From positions 1 through 11,450 of the forward strand of contig MKRS01000284.1 of assembly GCA_001897035.1 (NCBI GenBank): 11,450 bases of DNA. Reading direction: 5' to 3'. Shown piece after piece: positions 142-7,557 of this stretch. The DNA is from Bacteroidales bacterium 45-6. Its GTDB lineage: Bacteria; Bacteroidota; Bacteroidia; Bacteroidales; Dysgonomonadaceae. A program made the translations under genes and the position numbers. The notes under the pieces were generated by a model. It made no database searches, had not been told where the DNA came from, and was given only the letters and a program-made list of their open reading frames with translations. Each line of letters begins with the position of its first letter. Within the stretch, counting starts at the first letter, position 1.

Positions 142-1188
142 TTAGTTGTTTTCAGGGCGAAGCTTGCGAACCACTGCGCCTGCTTGCCACATTTCGCTTT
201 CGCGAAGGGCGGCCAATTCTTTTTCCAAGCCATCGCGGTAGTCAGGTTTGGAGTTGGTGTCGATGGAGCGTTGAGCTTCGTTGCCGACAGCCACTTCTGC
301 GTATAGTTTAGCAAAAACGGGTTTGGTGGCGTCGTGGAAAGGCCCCATCCAATCCAACGCACCACGTTGAGCGGTAGTAGAGCAGTTGGCATACATCCAG
401 TCCATTCCCTTTTCAGCGAACAAAGGCATCAGCGATTGGGTCAATTCTTCCACTGTTTCGTTGAAAGCTTCGGATGGAGTGTGTCCGTTTTCACGAAGTA
501 CTTCGTATTGTGCCAACAAAAGTCCTTGAATAGCACCCATCAAAGTACCACGTTCACCTGTCAAGTCGGAATACACTTCGCGTTTGAAAGTGGTTTCGAA
601 CAAATATCCTGATCCTACGCCGATTCCCAAAGCCACCGTGCGGTCGAAAGCCTTGCCAGTCGCATCCTGGAAGATGGCATAGCTGGAATTCAATCCACGC
701 CCTTCGAGGAACATGCGGCGCAAGCTTGTGCCGGAACCTTTGGGGGCAACGAGGATGACGTCGATGTCGGCAGGCGGAACGATGCCTGTGCGTTCTTTGT
801 AAGTGATGCCGAATCCATGGGAGAAATAAAGCGCTTTTCCGGCAGTCAAATAAGGTTTCAGGCGTGGCCAAACCTCGATTTGAGCAGCATCGGAAAGCAA
901 GTATTGGATGATGGTTGCGCGTTCGGCAGCCTCTTCAATGTCAAACAATGTTTCTCCGGGAACCCATCCGTCGGCAACAGCCTTTTCCCAAGTTTTTCCA
1001 CCTTTGCGTTGGCCAACGATCACGTTGAAGCCGTTGTCGCGCAGGTTGAGGGATTGTCCTGGTCCTTGCACGCCGTAGCCTATAACGGCGATGGTTTCAT
1101 TTTTCAATACTTCTCTTGCTTTTTCCAATGGAAATTCTTCACGGGTAACCACATTTTCGGTTACTCCTCCAAAATTCATTTCAGCCAT
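142..1188 (-). CDS. ilvC: Ketol-acid reductoisomerase (KARI, EC 1.1.1.86)
   Basis: This cytosolic enzyme isomerises and reduces 2-acetolactate (Val/Leu branch) or 2-aceto-2-hydroxybutyrate (Ile branch) to the dihydroxy acid, using NAD(P)H and Mg2+. The protein has 348 residues, the short form rather than the about 490-residue E. coli form. The Rossmann glycine motif GYGVQG is at 37-42 and the probable cofactor-specificity loop (VGQRKGGKTW) at 58-67. H124 sits in SHGF, and APKGSG is at 148-153. Expected metal and substrate ligands are D208 and E212 (SDLTGER), E244 and E248 (ETVEE) and S270 (CSTT). The GPGQ after the glycine motif and the C-terminal KLRPEN resemble fungal Ilv5 as I remember it, more than the usual bacterial GSQGHAHA form. 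It is the last gene of the operon, 64 nt after the thioesterase and just before a strong terminator. The ATG is preceded by an A-rich stretch without a Shine-Dalgarno sequence. Confidence 0.97.
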   Translation of the reverse strand: MAEMNFGGVTENVVTREEFPLEKAREVLKNETIAVIGYGVQGPGQSLNLRDNGFNVIVGQRKGGKTWEKAVADGWVPGETLFDIEEAAERATIIQYLLSDAAQIEVWPRLKPYLTAGKALYFSHGFGITYKERTGIVPPADIDVILVAPKGSGTSLRRMFLEGRGLNSSYAIFQDATGKAFDRTVALGIGVGSGYLFETTFKREVYSDLTGERGTLMGAIQGLLLAQYEVLRENGHTPSEAFNETVEELTQSLMPLFAEKGMDWMYANCSTTAQRGALDWMGPFHDATKPVFAKLYAEVAVGNEAQRSIDTNSKPDYRDGLEKELAALRESEMWQAGAVVRKLRPENN

Positions 1189-1252: not shown

Positions 1253-2002
1253 TTAATTGCTTGACGGCTTGCTCCATTCCACTTTTGCCAGACAGATAGT
1301 CCTGTCGCCGTTTTTCATGGCCAGCGTAAACGAGTCGGGCTCGTTTTCCGTTTCCAGAATTTGCAACTTTTCGCTGTAATGTCCCTCAAAAAGGTAGTTG
1401 ATGTGGAAATGCCGGATTTCCTTGTCGTGGTACATTTCGATAGGAAACACATCTACAAAATGCTCGATATACTTCAGGCTATTCAAATGCTTGTTGATGT
1501 CGATGTCGCTGTATTGCACCGTGAATCCGCCTGCCAACTTGCTGTCGCCTTTGGGCTGCGCAATTTTGGAGATGGCTTCGAGCGGACATTCCTTTTGTAG
1601 TACATATTCGTTCAAGCCTTTCATCTCCAGTATGCTAATTGGTTTTCGGGTCTCCACATCCAAGGCTGCCCACAGTGAACGGGCATATCCGACCTCCTTT
1701 CCGTCTTGATCTTGGATGGAAAAGCATCTTTCCGTAAAAAGTTTATTGATGTCTGTCACCCAGGTGTTTACAGTTATTTGTGTTTCGTTGGTCGGGTATT
1801 CACGGAGTTGGATGTGCATCCGGCTAAGGACCCATGTTTTTCCCTTTTCCGTCATGGCCGAATATCCAAATCCACGCTCTTCTGCGTGTTTGGAGGCTGC
1901 TTGCAGCAAAAATCCGCCAATCATGGGCAAAGTGGCCTTTCCCCGGAAGTCACTTAAATAAGCATCCACTGTGAATGTATATGAACCAACCGTATTTAGC
2001 AT
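1253..2002 (-). CDS. Acyl-[acyl-carrier-protein] thioesterase (FatA/FatB-like, double hotdog)
   Basis: The family hydrolyses the thioester of acyl-ACP, releasing free fatty acid from type II fatty acid synthesis. The 249-residue protein looks full length, with two hotdog halves. Around residues 58-112 are WVLSRMHIQL and the GYARSLWAALDVETRKP segment typical of the family. The second half carries YSDIDINKHLNSLKYIE (164-180), equivalent to the plant FatA/B catalytic DxNxHxN motif, with D168, N170 and H172 as likely active-site residues. From memory it is close to the Bacteroides thetaiotaomicron enzyme found in that organism's ilv operon. Here it lies between ilvN (72 nt upstream) and ilvC (64 nt downstream). 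The in-operon position suggests co-regulation with branched-chain keto-acid supply, possibly linked to iso/anteiso fatty acids. That link is inference, as is any substrate preference. Confidence 0.9.
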   Translation of the reverse strand: MLNTVGSYTFTVDAYLSDFRGKATLPMIGGFLLQAASKHAEERGFGYSAMTEKGKTWVLSRMHIQLREYPTNETQITVNTWVTDINKLFTERCFSIQDQDGKEVGYARSLWAALDVETRKPISILEMKGLNEYVLQKECPLEAISKIAQPKGDSKLAGGFTVQYSDIDINKHLNSLKYIEHFVDVFPIEMYHDKEIRHFHINYLFEGHYSEKLQILETENEPDSFTLAMKNGDRTICLAKVEWSKPSSN

Positions 2003-2074: not shown

Positions 2075-2617
2075 TTATTTCTGCTTTTTATCCAATTTTT
2101 GCAGCATATCGCTCAATCGTTCCGTTTTGGATTTGGTGATGGCAACGCGTCCCGAACGGATGAATTGCAGGACTCCGATCAGTCCGCTCAATTCCTTGAA
2201 CAGGCTTTGTGTTTCGGCATAATGTCCAGTCTTTTGAATCACCACATAAGTTTCGGTAATGTCCAGGATCTGCGCGTTGTATTTCCGGATAAGCTCTTCC
2301 ACCGAGGGAATGCGCAGGAATTCGGATGTTGCCAACTTGTAGAGGGCTATTTCCTGGTGAACCAATTCGTCGTCGGTGTTGAAATAGGCTTTCAGGATGT
2401 CCACTTTCTTGTCGATTTGCTTCACCACTTTTTCTATTTCTTCTTCCGTGCTGAAGGTGGTCACCGTGAATTTATGGATTCCTTCCAAGGCTGAAGGGGA
2501 AACCGAAAGGGTTTCGATATTTAATTGTCTCCGGGTGAAAACACTTGTCACCTGGCTCAGCAAGCCGGCGGTGTTTTCCGAAAAAATGGTTACGGTAAAT
2601 AATGTTTTATTTTCCAT
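2075..2617 (-). CDS. ilvN: Acetolactate synthase small (regulatory) subunit
   Basis: The regulatory subunit of AHAS (EC 2.2.1.6) activates IlvB and confers feedback inhibition by valine. I chose the ATG at 2617, giving 180 residues beginning MENKTLFTVTIFSEN. An upstream in-frame TTG at 2626 would add only MKY and is less likely. The N-terminal ACT domain spans about residues 3-75. It keeps the effector-pocket residues known from E. coli IlvH (N11, G14, N29) as N15, G18 and N33 in NTAGLLSQV and NIETL. The C-terminal AHAS regulatory domain (about 85-165) contains LQFIRSGRVAITK. Valine feedback is therefore expected. Unusually, it does not directly follow ilvB: a VOC gene and an 8-nt repeat tract lie between them. 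Confidence 0.95.
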   Translation of the reverse strand: MENKTLFTVTIFSENTAGLLSQVTSVFTRRQLNIETLSVSPSALEGIHKFTVTTFSTEEEIEKVVKQIDKKVDILKAYFNTDDELVHQEIALYKLATSEFLRIPSVEELIRKYNAQILDITETYVVIQKTGHYAETQSLFKELSGLIGVLQFIRSGRVAITKSKTERLSDMLQKLDKKQK

Positions 2618-2633
2618 GTATTTCAAATATTTG

Positions 2634-2709
2634 TTTACCTATTAGTAAATTTGCAAATCAGCTTATCCAATGATTAGATCATCTATTGGCGTATTGGCAC
2701 ATTCACTTA
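2634..2709. repeat. Degenerate 8-nt-phased repeat tract between the VOC gene and ilvN
   Basis: On the plus strand the tract reads in 8-nt steps: TTTACCTA, TTAGTAAA, TTTGCAAA, TCAGCTTA, TCCAATGA, TTAGATCA, a half unit TCTA, then TTGGCGTA, TTGGCACA, TTCACTTA. The shared pattern is roughly TTnGCnnA, with the initial T and final A best kept. It occupies most of the intergenic space, and its last unit overlaps the VOC stop codon (2707-2709). Two units recur at 24-39. The period is visible in the sequence; function is unknown. On the mRNA it would be an A/U-rich spacer without an obvious stable hairpin. Confidence 0.5.
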
Positions 2710-3102
2710 TTTTGATTCGTATAATTCTAAGGGCAAGTCGTCGGGATCACTAAAAAAGACGAAGTGTTTGCCGGTGATCTCATCTACGCGTATGGGTTCT
2801 GTTTTCACTCCGTTTGCGTGTAACTCGGCGACAGCCTTTTCGATGTCGTTTGTCGAGAAAGCGAGGTGGCGAAGGCCGCAGGCTTCGGGCCAGCTTTGCC
2901 TTTTCGGAGGGTTTTCGAACGAAAAGAGTTCGATTTGCCCTCCGTTTTCACCTATTTGCAAATCCAATTTATAGGATTTTCTCGCTTCGCGGTACGTTTC
3001 TGCAATCACCTTCAACCCGAGTTTGTTGACATAAAAATCTTTCGATTTTTCGTAATCCGAGCAGATAATTGCCGCATGATGTATCCGTTGAAGGCTATTC
3101 AT
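2707..3102 (-). CDS. VOC-superfamily metalloprotein, YaeR/SMU1112c (glyoxalase I-like) group
   Basis: This is a small single-module pair of beta-alpha-beta-beta-beta vicinal oxygen chelate units, 131 residues, full length. Visible signatures are IHHAAIICSDYEKSKDFY at the N terminus, YREARKSYKLDL (37-48), IELFSF (57-62), CGLRHLAFS (75-83) and DPDDLPLELYE (119-129). They match my memory of E. coli YaeR closely. Likely metal ligands are H8 or H9, E58, H79 and E126. The substrate of this subfamily is not settled, so I do not call it lactoylglutathione lyase. Its ATG lies inside the end of ilvB with an 8-nt overlap (3095-3102), indicating translational coupling and operon membership. The stop is followed by a repeat tract and then ilvN. 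Detoxification or proofreading of a reactive keto compound of the pathway is only a guess. Confidence 0.85.
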   Translation of the reverse strand: MNSLQRIHHAAIICSDYEKSKDFYVNKLGLKVIAETYREARKSYKLDLQIGENGGQIELFSFENPPKRQSWPEACGLRHLAFSTNDIEKAVAELHANGVKTEPIRVDEITGKHFVFFSDPDDLPLELYESK

Positions 3103-4795
3103 TTCCGAGCAAGATATTGGTTACGCATGTCCCTGCCGGCATCATGGGATAAACCATTCCTTTGGTTTCCACTTGCACGTCGAGCAAGTAAGCACCGTCG
3201 TGGTTCAGCATGTCGGCAATGGCTTCGTCCAATTCTTCACGGGTTTCCACTTTCCTTGCCGGAATGTTGTAGGCGTTGGATATTTTGACGAAATCCGGAT
3301 TTGTCATCACCGTTTCAGAATACCGTTCTTCGAAGAACAATTCTTGCCATTGGCGAACCATGCCCAAGAAGTGGTTGTTGAGAAGGATGATTTTCACATT
3401 CACGCCATATTGCATGATTACGCCCAACTCCTGGATGGTCATTTGGATGCCGCCGTCGCCTACAAAGAGGCAAATCGTGCGGTCGGGCGTGCCGTATTTG
3501 GCTCCGATGGCGGCAGGCAGGCCAAATCCCATCGTGCCCAATCCTCCTGATGTTACCACACTACGGGATTGTGAATATTTAAAATAGCGCACTCCCATCA
3601 TCTGGTGCTGACCAACATCGGTCACTAAAACCGCCTTGTTGTCAGTGGCTTCCGATACTTTGCGGATCACTTCGCCCATTTTCAGCTGTCCAGTAGTTGG
3701 ATAAAGTTCGTGCTTGATCACAGCGTCGTATTCACGTTGGTCGCACGCCCTGAATTCTTGTAGCCACTCTTGGTGGCTGTTTTTCTCGATTTTTTCAGTA
3801 ACGGCAGCCAGTGTCTCTTTCGCATCGCCCAGCACTTTTACATGGGCATACACGTTCTTGTCTATCTCGGCAGGATCGATGTCGAAGTGGATCACTTTGG
3901 CCTGCTTGGCGTAGGTTTTCAGGTCGCCCGTTACGCGATCGTCGAAACGCATCCCGATGGCAATCAGCACATCGCATTCGTTGGTTTTCTTGTTGGGTCC
4001 TAAGTTGCCGTGCATTCCCAGCATTCCCACGTGCAGCGGGTGGTCTGTCGGTACTGCTGACAGTCCCAACACGGTAGATGCGGCCGGAACTCCGGCTTTT
4101 TCCAAGAAAGCAAGCAGTTCTTTTTCAGCTCCTCCCAAAATCACACCCTGGCCTACCAGCGCATAAGGCTTTTTGGCTTGGTTGATTAATTTGGCAGCTT
4201 CTTCAATTGCCGAAATATTCACTTCGGGAATAGGTTGGTAGCTTCTGATGAATGATGCCTTTTTGTATTCGTAATTTGCAACTTTCCCAAATTGTGCATC
4301 TTTCGTAATATCTAACAACACAGGTCCTGGACGGCCAGATGCCGCAATGTAAAATGCCCTCGCCACAGCCCATGCAATGTCCTGCGGCCGTCTGATTTGA
4401 TAGGCCCATTTGGTCACCGGTTGTGATATGCCTACCACGTCGGCTTCCTGAAAGGCATCGCTTCCAAGGAGAGAGGATGCCACTTGGCCCGAAATCACGA
4501 TCATGGGTGTGCTGTCGATCATCGCATCTGCTATTCCCGTAATCGTATTGGTTGCGCCCGGTCCCGAAGTCACCAAGGCCACACCCACCTTGCCGGATGT
4601 TCTTGCATATCCTTCGGCTGCATGGGTTGCTCCTTGTTCGTGGCGTACTAAGATGTGGTTTATTTTATTTCGATAGTCGTATAAACAGTCAAAAACGGGC
4701 ATGATGGCACCACCTGGATACCCGAAAATCGTGTCAACTCCTTCACTTAACAATGAAAGAATTAAGGCTTCACTTCCTGTAATCTCTTTTGACAT
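3095..4795 (-). CDS. ilvB: Acetolactate synthase large (catalytic) subunit
   Basis: This ThDP- and FAD-dependent enzyme condenses two pyruvates to 2-acetolactate, or pyruvate and 2-oxobutyrate to 2-aceto-2-hydroxybutyrate, committing carbon to Val/Leu/Ile. At 566 residues it has the usual length and three-domain layout. The N-terminal pyrimidine-binding domain carries GYPGGAIMP (25-33) and catalytic E53 in RHEQGA. The central FAD/NAD-like domain spans about 190-340 and includes GMRFDDRVTG (281-290). The C-terminal PP domain has the ThDP/Mg motif beginning GDG at 446-448 and ending NN at 473-474. The C-terminal MVYPMMPAG is typical of biosynthetic AHAS. It starts 68 nt after ilvD and overlaps the downstream VOC gene by 8 nt. 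The regulatory partner IlvN is encoded one gene further on. Confidence 0.97.
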   Translation of the reverse strand: MSKEITGSEALILSLLSEGVDTIFGYPGGAIMPVFDCLYDYRNKINHILVRHEQGATHAAEGYARTSGKVGVALVTSGPGATNTITGIADAMIDSTPMIVISGQVASSLLGSDAFQEADVVGISQPVTKWAYQIRRPQDIAWAVARAFYIAASGRPGPVLLDITKDAQFGKVANYEYKKASFIRSYQPIPEVNISAIEEAAKLINQAKKPYALVGQGVILGGAEKELLAFLEKAGVPAASTVLGLSAVPTDHPLHVGMLGMHGNLGPNKKTNECDVLIAIGMRFDDRVTGDLKTYAKQAKVIHFDIDPAEIDKNVYAHVKVLGDAKETLAAVTEKIEKNSHQEWLQEFRACDQREYDAVIKHELYPTTGQLKMGEVIRKVSEATDNKAVLVTDVGQHQMMGVRYFKYSQSRSVVTSGGLGTMGFGLPAAIGAKYGTPDRTICLFVGDGGIQMTIQELGVIMQYGVNVKIILLNNHFLGMVRQWQELFFEERYSETVMTNPDFVKISNAYNIPARKVETREELDEAIADMLNHDGAYLLDVQVETKGMVYPMMPAGTCVTNILLGNE

Positions 4796-4863: not shown

Positions 4864-6687
4864 TTAATCGATCAGTCTCACGCCACCGAGGTCGGCTGAG
4901 CTCACCATGCTGGCATAAGCTTTCAGGGCTTTTGATACGTTTCGTTCTCGATTTGGTTTGAAAGCAAGGTTTCCCTTTGCGATTTCTTCTTGGCGGCGTT
5001 TTTCCAATTCTTCATCGCTTATCCTGAGCTGGATAGAACGATTTGGAATGTCGATGTCTATGATGTCTCCATCTTTAATCAATCCGATGGCACCTCCTGA
5101 AGCGGCTTCCGGCGAAACGTGCCCGATGGATAATCCCGAAGTTCCTCCCGAAAAACGTCCGTCAGTGATGAGGGCGCATTCTTTTCCAAGATGTTTCGAT
5201 TTGATGTAGGATGTGGGGTAGAGCATTTCCTGCATTCCTGGTCCTCCTTTAGGTCCTTCGTAGATAATTAGCACTACATCTCCCGCTTTCACTTCGTCTC
5301 TCAAGATCCCTTCACAAGCTGCATCCTGCGAATGGAAAACTTTGGCCGTTCCGCTAAATTTGAAGATGCTTTCGTCCACACCGGCAGTTTTCACAACGCA
5401 ACCGTCCAAGGCGATGTTTCCTTTCAGGATGGCCAATCCTCCATCTTTGGTGTAGGCATGTTCCATATCCCGGATGCAGCCACTGACTCGGTCTTTGTCC
5501 AAGGTGTCGAACTTTTCATTTTGCGAGCCCATCACCAAATTGAAGCGGTTGGCAGGAGCCGAACTGTAGATCCGTTCGGCTTCGGCATCCAAAGCATTTT
5601 CCGTGATGGAATATTTTTCAATGGCTTGTTGCAATGTCAAACCATCTGCCCGATGTACGCTTGTGTCAATCAGCCCCCCTTTTGCCAATTCTCCGAGAAT
5701 CCCCATGATTCCGCCCGCACGGTTTACGTCTTGAATGTGGTATTTTTCGCTGTTCGGGGCAACTTTGCAAAGGCAAGGCGTTTTACGGGAAAGTTCATCA
5801 ATATCTGCCATCTTGAAATCGACTTCTGCCTCGTGAGCGATAGCCAGCAAGTGGAGAATCGTGTTTGTGGAGCCTCCCATGGCGATATCCAACCTCATGG
5901 CATTGAGAAAAGCTGTTTTGGAAGCAATGGACCGAGGTAGGACGGTGTCGTCTCCGTCGCGGTAGTATTTGTATGCGTTTTCTACGATGATTTTTGCCGC
6001 ATCCTTGAACAGTTGGAGGCGGTTGGCATGGGTTGCAACAATTGTTCCGTTTCCGGGCAAACCCAAACCTATGGCTTCATTCAAACAATTCATGGAGTTT
6101 GCGGTAAACATACCCGAGCAAGAACCACATGTTGGGCATGCTGCTCTTTCAATGGCGTTCACTTCTTTGTCCGAAATGGTTGAATCGGCAGATTTTATCA
6201 TCGCATCCACCAAGTCGAGCTGCTTTTCGCCAAGCTTTCCGGCTTCCATCGGGCCTCCCGAAACAAAAATGGCTGGAATATTTAGGCGCATGGCTGCAAT
6301 CAGCATTCCCGGAGTGATTTTGTCACAATTGCTGATGCAAATCATCGCATCGGCTTTGTGTGCATTCACCATGTATTCGATGCTGTCGGCGATCAGGTCG
6401 CGTGAGGGTAGGGAGTAAAGCATTCCGTCGTGCCCCATAGCTATCCCGTCGTCGATGGCGATGGTGTTGAATTCGGCGGCAAAGCAGCCTAATTTTTCAA
6501 TCTCACCCTTCACCATCTGTCCCACTTCGTGCAGGTGCACATGCCCCGGGACAAATTGCGTAAATGAATTCACGATGGCGATCAGCGGTTTCCCCATTTG
6601 ATCTTCTTTCATGCCATTGGCTTTCCACAAGGCTCTGGCTCCAGCCATTCTGCGACCTTTTGTGGTGGTCAAACTCCTTAATTCCAT
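4864..6687 (-). CDS. ilvD: Dihydroxy-acid dehydratase
   Basis: This iron-sulfur dehydratase (EC 4.2.1.9) converts 2,3-dihydroxy-isovalerate or -methylvalerate to the keto acid, the step after KARI. The 607-residue protein aligns end to end with the long E. coli-type enzyme as I recall it. Cluster-region cysteines are C121 in NCDKITPGM and C184, C187 and C190 in [10 protein letters not shown]. The early segment [14 protein letters not shown] lacks the extra cysteine found in oxygen-stable [2Fe-2S] relatives, which suggests an oxygen-labile [4Fe-4S] enzyme. Other conserved stretches are [18 protein letters not shown] (271-288), [13 protein letters not shown] (477-489) and [20 protein letters not shown] (508-527). 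It is the first structural gene of the operon. The ATG lies about 33 nt after the leader terminator's T-run, so expression depends directly on the attenuator. Confidence 0.97.
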
Positions 6688-6719: not shown

Positions 6720-6751
6720 AAAAAAAGCCTTTCTCTTTGTGAGAAAGGCTT
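6720..6751 (-). terminator. Attenuator: intrinsic terminator in the ilv leader
   Basis: In the minus-strand RNA a perfect 11-bp stem, AAGCCUUUCUC with GAGAAAGGCUU (6751-6741 with 6735-6725), has a 5-nt loop ACAAA and runs directly into a stretch of U's to about 6720. It lies between the leader peptide stop (6789) and the ilvD start (6687). There is no other gene for it to terminate, so it must act on the ilv transcript itself. Its 5' arm is also complementary to a segment overlapping the leader peptide's stop codon, so it can be disrupted. Confidence 0.92.
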
Positions 6752-6812
6752 ACATATATATTCTACATGGCAATCAGGCACACCTTTCTCACTCGTACTG
6801 ACAGAGGACGAG
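6739..6812 (-). promoter_or_regulatory. Antiterminator and protector hairpins of the ilv attenuator
   Basis: Two alternative pairings precede the terminator in the minus-strand RNA. The antiterminator pairs GUGAGAAAGG (6792-6783, spanning the leader stop codon) with CCUUUCUCAC (6748-6739), 10 perfect bp that consume most of the terminator's 5' arm. A protector hairpin pairs CUCGU (6812-6808, inside the Val/Leu codons) with ACGAG (6796-6792, the last codons) and competes with the antiterminator at its edge. A ribosome stalled on the Leu/Val codons would leave 6783-6792 free and permit antitermination. A ribosome reaching the stop would cover it and permit termination. The complementarity is seen directly; the mechanism follows the classical enterobacterial his/trp/ilv attenuators. 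Confidence 0.85.
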
Positions 6813-6845
6813 GACGACAAGGTTATATACTGAATTGATAGCCAT
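6789..6845 (-). CDS. ilvL: ilv operon leader peptide (18 aa, Leu/Val-rich)
   Basis: An ATG-started, TGA-stopped 18-codon reading frame gives MAINSVYNLVVLVLCQYE. Codons 9-14 are an unbroken Leu-Val-Val-Leu-Val-Leu run (CTT GTC GTC CTC GTC CTC). With I3 and V6, eight of 18 residues are branched-chain amino acids. It starts about 20 nt after the predicted transcription start and stops 38 nt before the terminator stem, as an attenuation control peptide should. There is no Shine-Dalgarno sequence; an A-rich stretch precedes the ATG, as at the other genes here. With only one Ile codon, outside the run, sensing should be mainly of Leu- and Val-tRNA charging. The symbol is by analogy with enteric ilvL, not homology. 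Its product is probably not a functional protein. Confidence 0.85.
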   Translation of the reverse strand: MAINSVYNLVVLVLCQYE

Positions 6846-6870
6846 AGCTTTTTTTGTTTTATAGATGGGG

Positions 6871-6900
6871 CAAAGTTATAAATCTTTTTTTTATAAACAA
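6871..6900 (-). promoter_or_regulatory. Bacteroidetes-type promoter of the ilv operon
   Basis: On the minus strand TTG (6900-6898) is followed after 19 nt by TAACTTTG (6878-6871), a full match to the Bacteroidetes sigma-A -7 element TAnnTTTG with a -33 TTG at normal spacing. The spacer is A/T-rich. Transcription should start near 6864-6866, about 20 nt before the leader peptide ATG at 6845. No other full-match promoter with correct spacing was seen further down the operon. Confidence 0.75.
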
Positions 6901-7107: not shown

Positions 7108-7557
7108 ATGAATAACTGGTTTGAATGCAAAGTCAGCTATGACAAACAACTCGAAAACGGTCTAATCAAAAAAACGACGGAACCTTATCTGGTCGATGCC
7201 CTTTCTTTCACTGAGGCGGAGGCGCGCATCATAGAGGAAATTAAGCCTTATATCAGCGGCGAATTTTCCATTACAGATATAAAAAGGGCGAAACTGTCGG
7301 AAATTTTTTTCAACGAAAATGGTGACCGCTTCTATAAAGTGAAAGTCCAATACATCACTTTGGACGAAAAAAGTGGGGCTGAAAAGAAAACAGCCGTCAA
7401 CATGCTGGCTCAGGCATCCGATTTCCAGGAGGCCTTGGACGTGGTGCTGAAAGGCATGGCCGGCACAATGGCCGATTACAACATTGCCTCGATAGCTGAA
7501 ACCAACTTGATGGATATCTTCCCCTACAATAGCGAAAAGCCAGTAAAGCCGGAATAA
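7108..7557 (+). CDS. DUF4494 domain-containing protein
   Basis: A 149-residue soluble protein with no signal peptide or membrane segment. I recognise it as the Bacteroidetes-restricted DUF4494 family from its opening MNNWFECKVSYDKQLENG, the middle SFTEAEARIIEEIKPYISGEF and the C-terminal TMADYNIASIAETNLMDIFPYN. Alternating hydrophobic residues suggest mostly beta strands with two helices (about 34-46 and 106-117). The molecular function is unknown. The gene begins about 55 nt after a good TAnnTTTG promoter and lies only 12 nt before yggS, so they are probably co-transcribed. The pairing hints at a role near vitamin B6 or amino-acid metabolism, but nothing in the protein itself shows this. The length agrees with the family as I remember it, and the start is the only ATG that keeps the conserved N terminus. 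Confidence 0.82.
   Translation: MNNWFECKVSYDKQLENGLIKKTTEPYLVDALSFTEAEARIIEEIKPYISGEFSITDIKRAKLSEIFFNENGDRFYKVKVQYITLDEKSGAEKKTAVNMLAQASDFQEALDVVLKGMAGTMADYNIASIAETNLMDIFPYNSEKPVKPE

Follow-up and report, generated by a model that had tools for sequence, protein, structure and literature searches.

The ilv operon in the window (the whole stretch of 11,450 nucleotides that was analysed) is preceded by what we judge, with a probability of about 0.92, to be a ribosome-mediated transcription attenuator of the canonical type, and the element is real and very probably functional. A first-pass annotation of the same DNA had proposed this reading, and it was borne out: the leader peptide, the competing arms, the terminator and the promoter box are kept in relatives, and a model of the nascent RNA switches as attenuation requires. 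The mechanism is ordinary; the element is absent from Rfam, is one of several in the genome, and is conserved in Bacteroidales.

The ilv operon and its leader

The window corresponds to contig C284 of genome G000, which is incomplete and has the Bacteroidales MAG UBA1309 as its nearest record (ilvD 98% identical), with Dysgonomonas species among the next-closest records. The operon runs on the minus strand in the order ilvD-ilvB-VOC-ilvN-thioesterase-ilvC:

4864..6687, minus strand: ilvD, dihydroxy-acid dehydratase, operon gene 1 (NCBIfam NF009103, 1068 bits, cut-off 710)
3095..4795, minus strand: ilvB, acetolactate synthase large subunit (TIGR00118, 709.2 bits, cut-off 538.35)
2707..3102, minus strand: SMU1112c/YaeR-type VOC protein (NF050075, 199 bits, cut-off 140)
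2075..2626, minus strand: ilvN, acetolactate synthase small subunit (TIGR00119, 87.1 bits, cut-off 56.9)
1253..2002, minus strand: acyl-ACP thioesterase-like protein (PF01643, 87.5 bits, and PF20791, 49.7 bits, each above cut-off)
142..1188, minus strand: ilvC, ketol-acid reductoisomerase (TIGR00465, 326.9 bits, cut-off 226.15)

The sister genome (G001, L112) has the identical gene order, as read by eye, so that the thioesterase-like and YaeR-type VOC genes lie inside the ilv operon in both genomes.

The attenuator is located on the minus strand in the intergenic region between ilvD (4864-6687, minus) and a divergent DUF4494 gene (7108-7557, plus). Its elements are present as the first-pass annotation had described them:

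6898..6900, minus strand: -33 element TTG of the leader promoter, read directly, 19 nt from the -7 element
6871..6878, minus strand: -7 element TAACTTTG (TAnnTTTG), 25 nt to the leader ATG at 6845
6789..6845, minus strand: leader peptide ORF MAINSVYNLVVLVLCQYE, 18 codons, stop TGA 6791-6789, read directly
6804..6821, minus strand: control codons CTT GTC GTC CTC GTC CTC (LVVLVL), read directly
6783..6822, minus strand: predicted protector (segment 1:2), control-codon region with antiterminator arm, from the MFE fold
6783..6792, minus strand: antiterminator 5' arm (segment 2) GTGAGAAAGG, covering the leader stop codon, 10 bp perfect with the 3' arm
6739..6748, minus strand: antiterminator 3' arm (segment 3) CCTTTCTCAC, mostly common to the terminator, 10 bp perfect with the 5' arm
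6720..6751, minus strand: intrinsic terminator, 11-bp stem AAGCCTTTCTC 6751-6741 / GAGAAAGGCTT 6735-6725, 5-nt loop ACAAA, U7 6726-6720, from the sequence and the MFE fold

The promoter box at 6878-6871, the leader peptide at 6845-6789 with the Leu-Val-Val-Leu-Val-Leu run at 6821-6804, and the perfect pairing of 6792-6783 with 6748-6739 over the leader stop codon were all found as claimed. The two long pairings are, also as claimed, mutually exclusive, since both use positions 6748-6741. Two details had to be amended. The terminator does have a perfect 11-bp stem and a U-run, but the spacing from stop codon to stem is 37 nt and not 38; and the 5-bp protector hairpin, although its pairing is predicted, is actually part of a longer predicted hairpin between the control-codon region and the antiterminator arm. 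No SD-like sequence is found upstream of the window's leader ATG (CTATAAAACAAAAAAAGCTATG).

An arrangement of this kind is rarely obtained by chance. The 136-nt leader folds with -42 kcal/mol as compared to -26.07 (sd 3.25) for shuffled sequences, none of 200 being equally stable, and the terminator is the favoured fold of the full-length leader. The antiterminator duplex (-20.7 kcal/mol) was matched in strength by none of 200 mononucleotide shuffles (mean -9.1; z -4.42). When the 420-nt intergenic region was subjected to 20,000 dinucleotide shuffles, the terminator alone appeared in 30 and together with the antiterminator in 1, and the combination with a leader run in 0.

A long, structured 5' region also fits control of the terminator by a metabolite riboswitch or a T-box, with the ORF in a secondary role. 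However, no part of the window reached the gathering score of any Rfam family, T-box and riboswitch models included, the matches from a permissive Rfam scan were all far under the gathering scores, and the codon content of the leader follows the downstream pathway. We consider such control very improbable as compared to ribosome-mediated attenuation.

Conservation among ilvD loci

Comparison of the upstream regions of relatives, the check that the first-pass annotation had called for, came out in favour of the attenuator, with the branched-chain amino acid (BCAA)-rich ORF, the antiterminator arm at the stop codon and the terminator all kept, and with covarying stems. The 110 ilvD loci were reduced to 100 distinct ones by merging those with an identical 100-nt upstream stretch (an earlier set comprised 105), and attenuators were recognized by an automatic rule, i.e. 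a BCAA-rich ORF terminating 25-67 nt ahead of the terminator core. The attenuator is present in 69 of the 100 distinct loci, 64 by the rule and 5 by eye (L056, L081, L082, L086, L089). Carriers include Phocaeicola vulgatus ATCC 8482 (L071), Bacteroides fragilis S82 (by eye), Parabacteroides gordonii, P. distasonis, Dysgonomonas mossii and Bacteroides luti, and gut Bacteroidales such as the first of these gain a concrete model of branched-chain amino acid control.

Most of the 31 loci without an attenuator share another arrangement, with leuB immediately upstream of ilvD in 21 (tblastn; leuB HMM-confirmed in L019), as compared to 0 of the attenuator-bearing loci. The remainder are 2 contig ends and 8 loci with a full upstream region but neither leuB nor a recognized attenuator. 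For 12 genomes of the leuB-ilvD arrangement, the covariance model instead locates the attenuator in front of leuA, 6.3-7.2 kb ahead of ilvD. In two of the 8 loci, L095 and L108, there is upstream of ilvD a terminator-like hairpin with no recognizable BCAA leader ORF, and these hairpins are possibly decayed attenuators.

The promoter box is likewise kept. In 56 of 58 leaders a TAnnTTTG ends 12-42 nt ahead of the start codon, whereas 3 of the 58 contain one in a control stretch lying 252-320 nt upstream (in 2 cases this stretch falls short of 68 nt), and a TTG at similar distance occurs in 55 of the 56 relatives having the -7 box. In a Bacteroides/Phocaeicola group the leader frame passes through segment 2 and stops 20-22 nt beyond its start. 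Leaders with such a late stop (L064, L070, L075, L078, L080, L084, L100, L103, L105) represent a natural variant of the stop position.

Alignment A1 was made from 59 leaders of 73, leaving out duplicates, leaders over 95% similar to one another, and L108, which has no fitting leader. Its sequences are mutually related and the pairing and recoding counts not independent, with 95.3% of cells paired in the terminator and 94.7% in the antiterminator (segment 2:3); for each of the two helices 0 of 500 shuffles reached the pairing or the covariation score. Slid registers of either pairing gave at most 71% paired. The outer column pair of the antiterminator, 82:172, is UA in 39 leaders, GC in 8, GU in 3, UG in 2 and other in 7, and column 172 makes the terminator pair in only 34 of 59. 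Segment 3 (CCTTTCTC) is nearly invariant while segments 2 and 4 drift through G-U changes, presumably because the fixed arm has two partners.

Leu, Val and Ile account for 19%, 19% and 13% of the residues in the 59 leaders. The first-pass annotation had described the code as rich in Leu and Val and poor in Ile, which is true of the window's leader but not of the family, in which 51 of 59 leaders have at least 2 Ile codons and 55 have all three amino acids; the Ile-poor code is a peculiarity of the window's lineage. As compared to the ilvD genes, the 59 leaders favour GTC (52% of Val vs 14%), CTC (33% vs 11%), CTA (15% vs 4%) and ATT (80% vs 40%), a bias that may arise from pairing of the run with the purine-rich segment 2, from tRNA choice, or from both.

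LHI-type stretches recur in the leaders of several genera, as might suit a peptide that arrests the ribosome from within the exit tunnel instead of by codon-limited stalling. On the other hand, BCAA content is kept while the residues vary between genera, the recurrent stretch coincides with the segment predicted to pair with segment 2 and its 3' flank, and the leaders of other operons are rich in their own product amino acid. An arrest peptide is thus highly unlikely, and codon-limited stalling is the reading we retain.

Modeled switching in the nascent RNA

The enteric ilv, leu, his, thr, trp and phe operons are subject to attenuation by a ribosome on a leader peptide. The Bacteroidales ilv leader resembles these attenuators in its product-rich peptide, its stop codon near the antiterminator arm, its competing terminator and its U-run, but it belongs to another phylum and has a TAnnTTTG promoter, and of 59 such leaders only 1 shows an SD-like 4-mer upstream of its start. 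To our knowledge, Bacteroidota messages as a rule lack Shine-Dalgarno sequences.

With charged Leu-tRNA and Val-tRNA the ribosome would reach the stop codon and cover segment 2, whereupon the terminator would form and transcription end ahead of ilvD. At low Leu or Val charging it would stall within the LVVLVL run, and the exposed segment 2 would pair with segment 3 ahead of the synthesis of segment 4, allowing RNA polymerase to enter ilvD-ilvC. With no ribosome on the leader, the control-codon region would pair with segment 2 and termination would dominate, which is the least secure step. We infer that the ilv leader responds to tRNA charging and involves transcription-translation coupling, and the attenuator thereby predicts such coupling in Bacteroidota.

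The switch was modeled with nascent RNA up to segment 3 and a ribosome covering to 13 nt beyond the A-site, a model in which the footprint is assumed and kinetics are ignored. For the window, the antiterminator probability was 1.0 with codons 2-15 in the A-site, 0.51 at Gln16, 0.25-0.26 at the next two codons, 0.14 at the stop codon and 0.12 without ribosome. For the 59 leaders the mean was 0.93 with the ribosome stalled in the run, 0.17 at the stop codon and 0.53 with no ribosome, the stalled value exceeding the stop value in 59 of 59. The no-ribosome mean of 0.53, together with the 21 of 59 leaders in which the antiterminator probability at the stop codon exceeds 0.2, means that clean termination is not predicted everywhere.

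The same calculations agree in part with a plain intrinsic terminator that constitutively lowers expression, with an incidental short ORF and any regulation exerted by a protein at the promoter, as the stem is strong, is the favoured full-length fold, and has a modeled probability of 1.00 in the window without ribosome. A plain terminator does not account for the retention in relatives of the ORF with its BCAA run and of a competing arm at the stop codon, nor for codon runs that fit the pathway gene by gene, and we find it improbable next to ribosome-mediated attenuation.

The protector helix is the least supported part of the attenuator, its presence being weakly supported. No covariation was detected for it in A1, where 73.2% of cells are paired and 172 of 500 shuffles were equally high. 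As a family, the 59 leaders folded more stably than synonymous-codon shuffles, with a mean z of -1.48 (at or below 0 in 54 of 59, below -2 in 18), but the window's protector, with z -0.47, is not better than its synonymous recodings.

Attenuator-type leaders ahead of other operons

Three further leaders of the same genome have the layout of the ilv leader. The leuA attenuator (G000:C759; L111:955-1094, minus) has the leader MIASFENIISSILLLLCGFQRVS with LLLL and four CTC Leu codons, the trpB leader (G000:C804; L172:190-329, plus) is MFINSVNTYWWWRSQLQKS with WWW, and the pheA leader (G000:C756; L173:1847-1981, minus) is MAVRFFTYFFFYFYFSR with FFTYFFFYFYF. The genome, which is incomplete, yielded no hisG. 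The trpB leader matches the Rfam family Bacteroid-trp, RF01692, with 67.1 bits (gathering score 49), and its site is found by the ilv covariance model too, while no Rfam model matches the ilv, leu or phe leaders of the genome at gathering score. A single terminator core for all Bacteroidota attenuators was considered and dropped, as the terminators of trpB, pheA and hisG leaders differ from it in sequence.

The downstream proteins of 13 loci were checked by HMM and 11 could be named, the exceptions being L122, without a match at 1e-20, and L182, without one at a strict 1e-60. Partial proteins at contig or locus ends (L161, L172) fall under full-length HMM cut-offs, and the pheA protein of the same genome is below the NCBIfam cut-off but above that of PF00800. 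Outside these 13 loci, downstream genes were named by eye from their N-termini.

A codon-run scan of loci of the order, based on promoter box, ORF and terminator with no covariance model (L218 and L243, weak second matches, were left out), revealed cognate runs of His before hisG in 13 of 26 loci, of Phe before pheA in 15 of 24, and of BCAA before ilvD in 56 of 100 distinct loci (61 of 105 before merging). Codon runs preceded purA in 0 of 30 control loci, the best 30 of 44 genomes with a match, and runs of the BCAA type were found in 0 of 26 hisG, 0 of 24 pheA and 0 of 30 purA loci. The only non-cognate runs were 2 Trp-type matches among the ilvD loci. The antiterminator duplex had a z below -2 in 47 of 59 ilv leaders and was weaker in the his (2 of 13) and phe leaders (6 of 16); L240 was left out of this comparison.

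Across the phylum, the ilv covariance model, which is biased toward its own terminator core, matched 171 of 395 genomes, a figure that does not equal the number of attenuators. When 30 of its loci were read by eye, 25 had a leader run fitting the downstream gene and 5 did not (L122, L136, L139, L140, L141); among 20 further places, 5 had no fitting leader (L176, L180, L189, L190, L191). The search also yielded leaders of the Trp type before trpE, of the Thr/Ile type before aspartokinase genes, and of the Ile/Val type before ilvE. All 12 of the leuA leaders from leu-ilv operons (L145, L146, L148-L154, L156, L158, L166) have Val in the run, as compared to 0 of 8 leaders of separate leuA genes (L147, L160, L161, L163, L183-L186), a comparison uncorrected for kinship in which all 12 of the former and 4 of the 8 latter come from one family.

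Attenuation in Bacteroidota has already been suspected, from Bacteroid-trp (PMC2864571), from Flavobacterium psychrophilum (PMC9723704), and from leader-like sORFs remarked upon in B. thetaiotaomicron (PMC7366714). Bacteroid-trp (RF01692; Weinberg 2010) shares phylum and layout with the ilv leader but has Trp codons and a different terminator sequence, and the window's ilv leader gave no RF01692 match at gathering score or by permissive scan. The F. psychrophilum study, a transcriptome of one species, reports structured 5' regions ahead of amino acid operons with clues to leader-peptide attenuation, and names pheA and hisG elements with no Rfam hits; 'ilv' is absent from its main text (PMC9723704). 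In Staphylococcus aureus a BCAA-rich leader and a terminator likewise precede ilvD, an attenuator backed by suppressor mutations and growth data, albeit in a Firmicute, with an Ile/Leu leader, a putative ribosome binding site and another antiterminator arrangement (PMC5794164). A search of mainly open-access literature yielded no account of an ilv attenuator from Bacteroidota. A 2013 study, which lists the Rfam His, Trp, Thr and Leu leaders, proposed that amino acid attenuators may have arisen in gammaproteobacteria with few transfers (PMC3766115); the Bacteroidales attenuators speak against this as a general statement.

The breadth of attenuation across the phylum is of more interest than the single ilv case. 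We lean towards the view that ribosome-mediated attenuation (of ilv, leu, trp, phe, his, thr and perhaps met/cys), free of SD sequences and with leader codons tracking the pathway genes of the operon, is the Bacteroidota default for control of amino acid synthesis.

In L121, L123, L126 and L142, Thr/Ile-rich leaders such as MTTNNTIIITIITTGINLGGR precede aspartokinase-type genes (HMM only for L121); these loci come from another family within the class. Leaders of this type closely resemble the enteric thr leader. Finally, a leader-like ORF with MMPMCMMMCCCC is located before an O-acetylhomoserine/O-acetylserine sulfhydrylase gene (TIGR01326) in L188 (G348:C18), and it is a possible Met/Cys attenuator.
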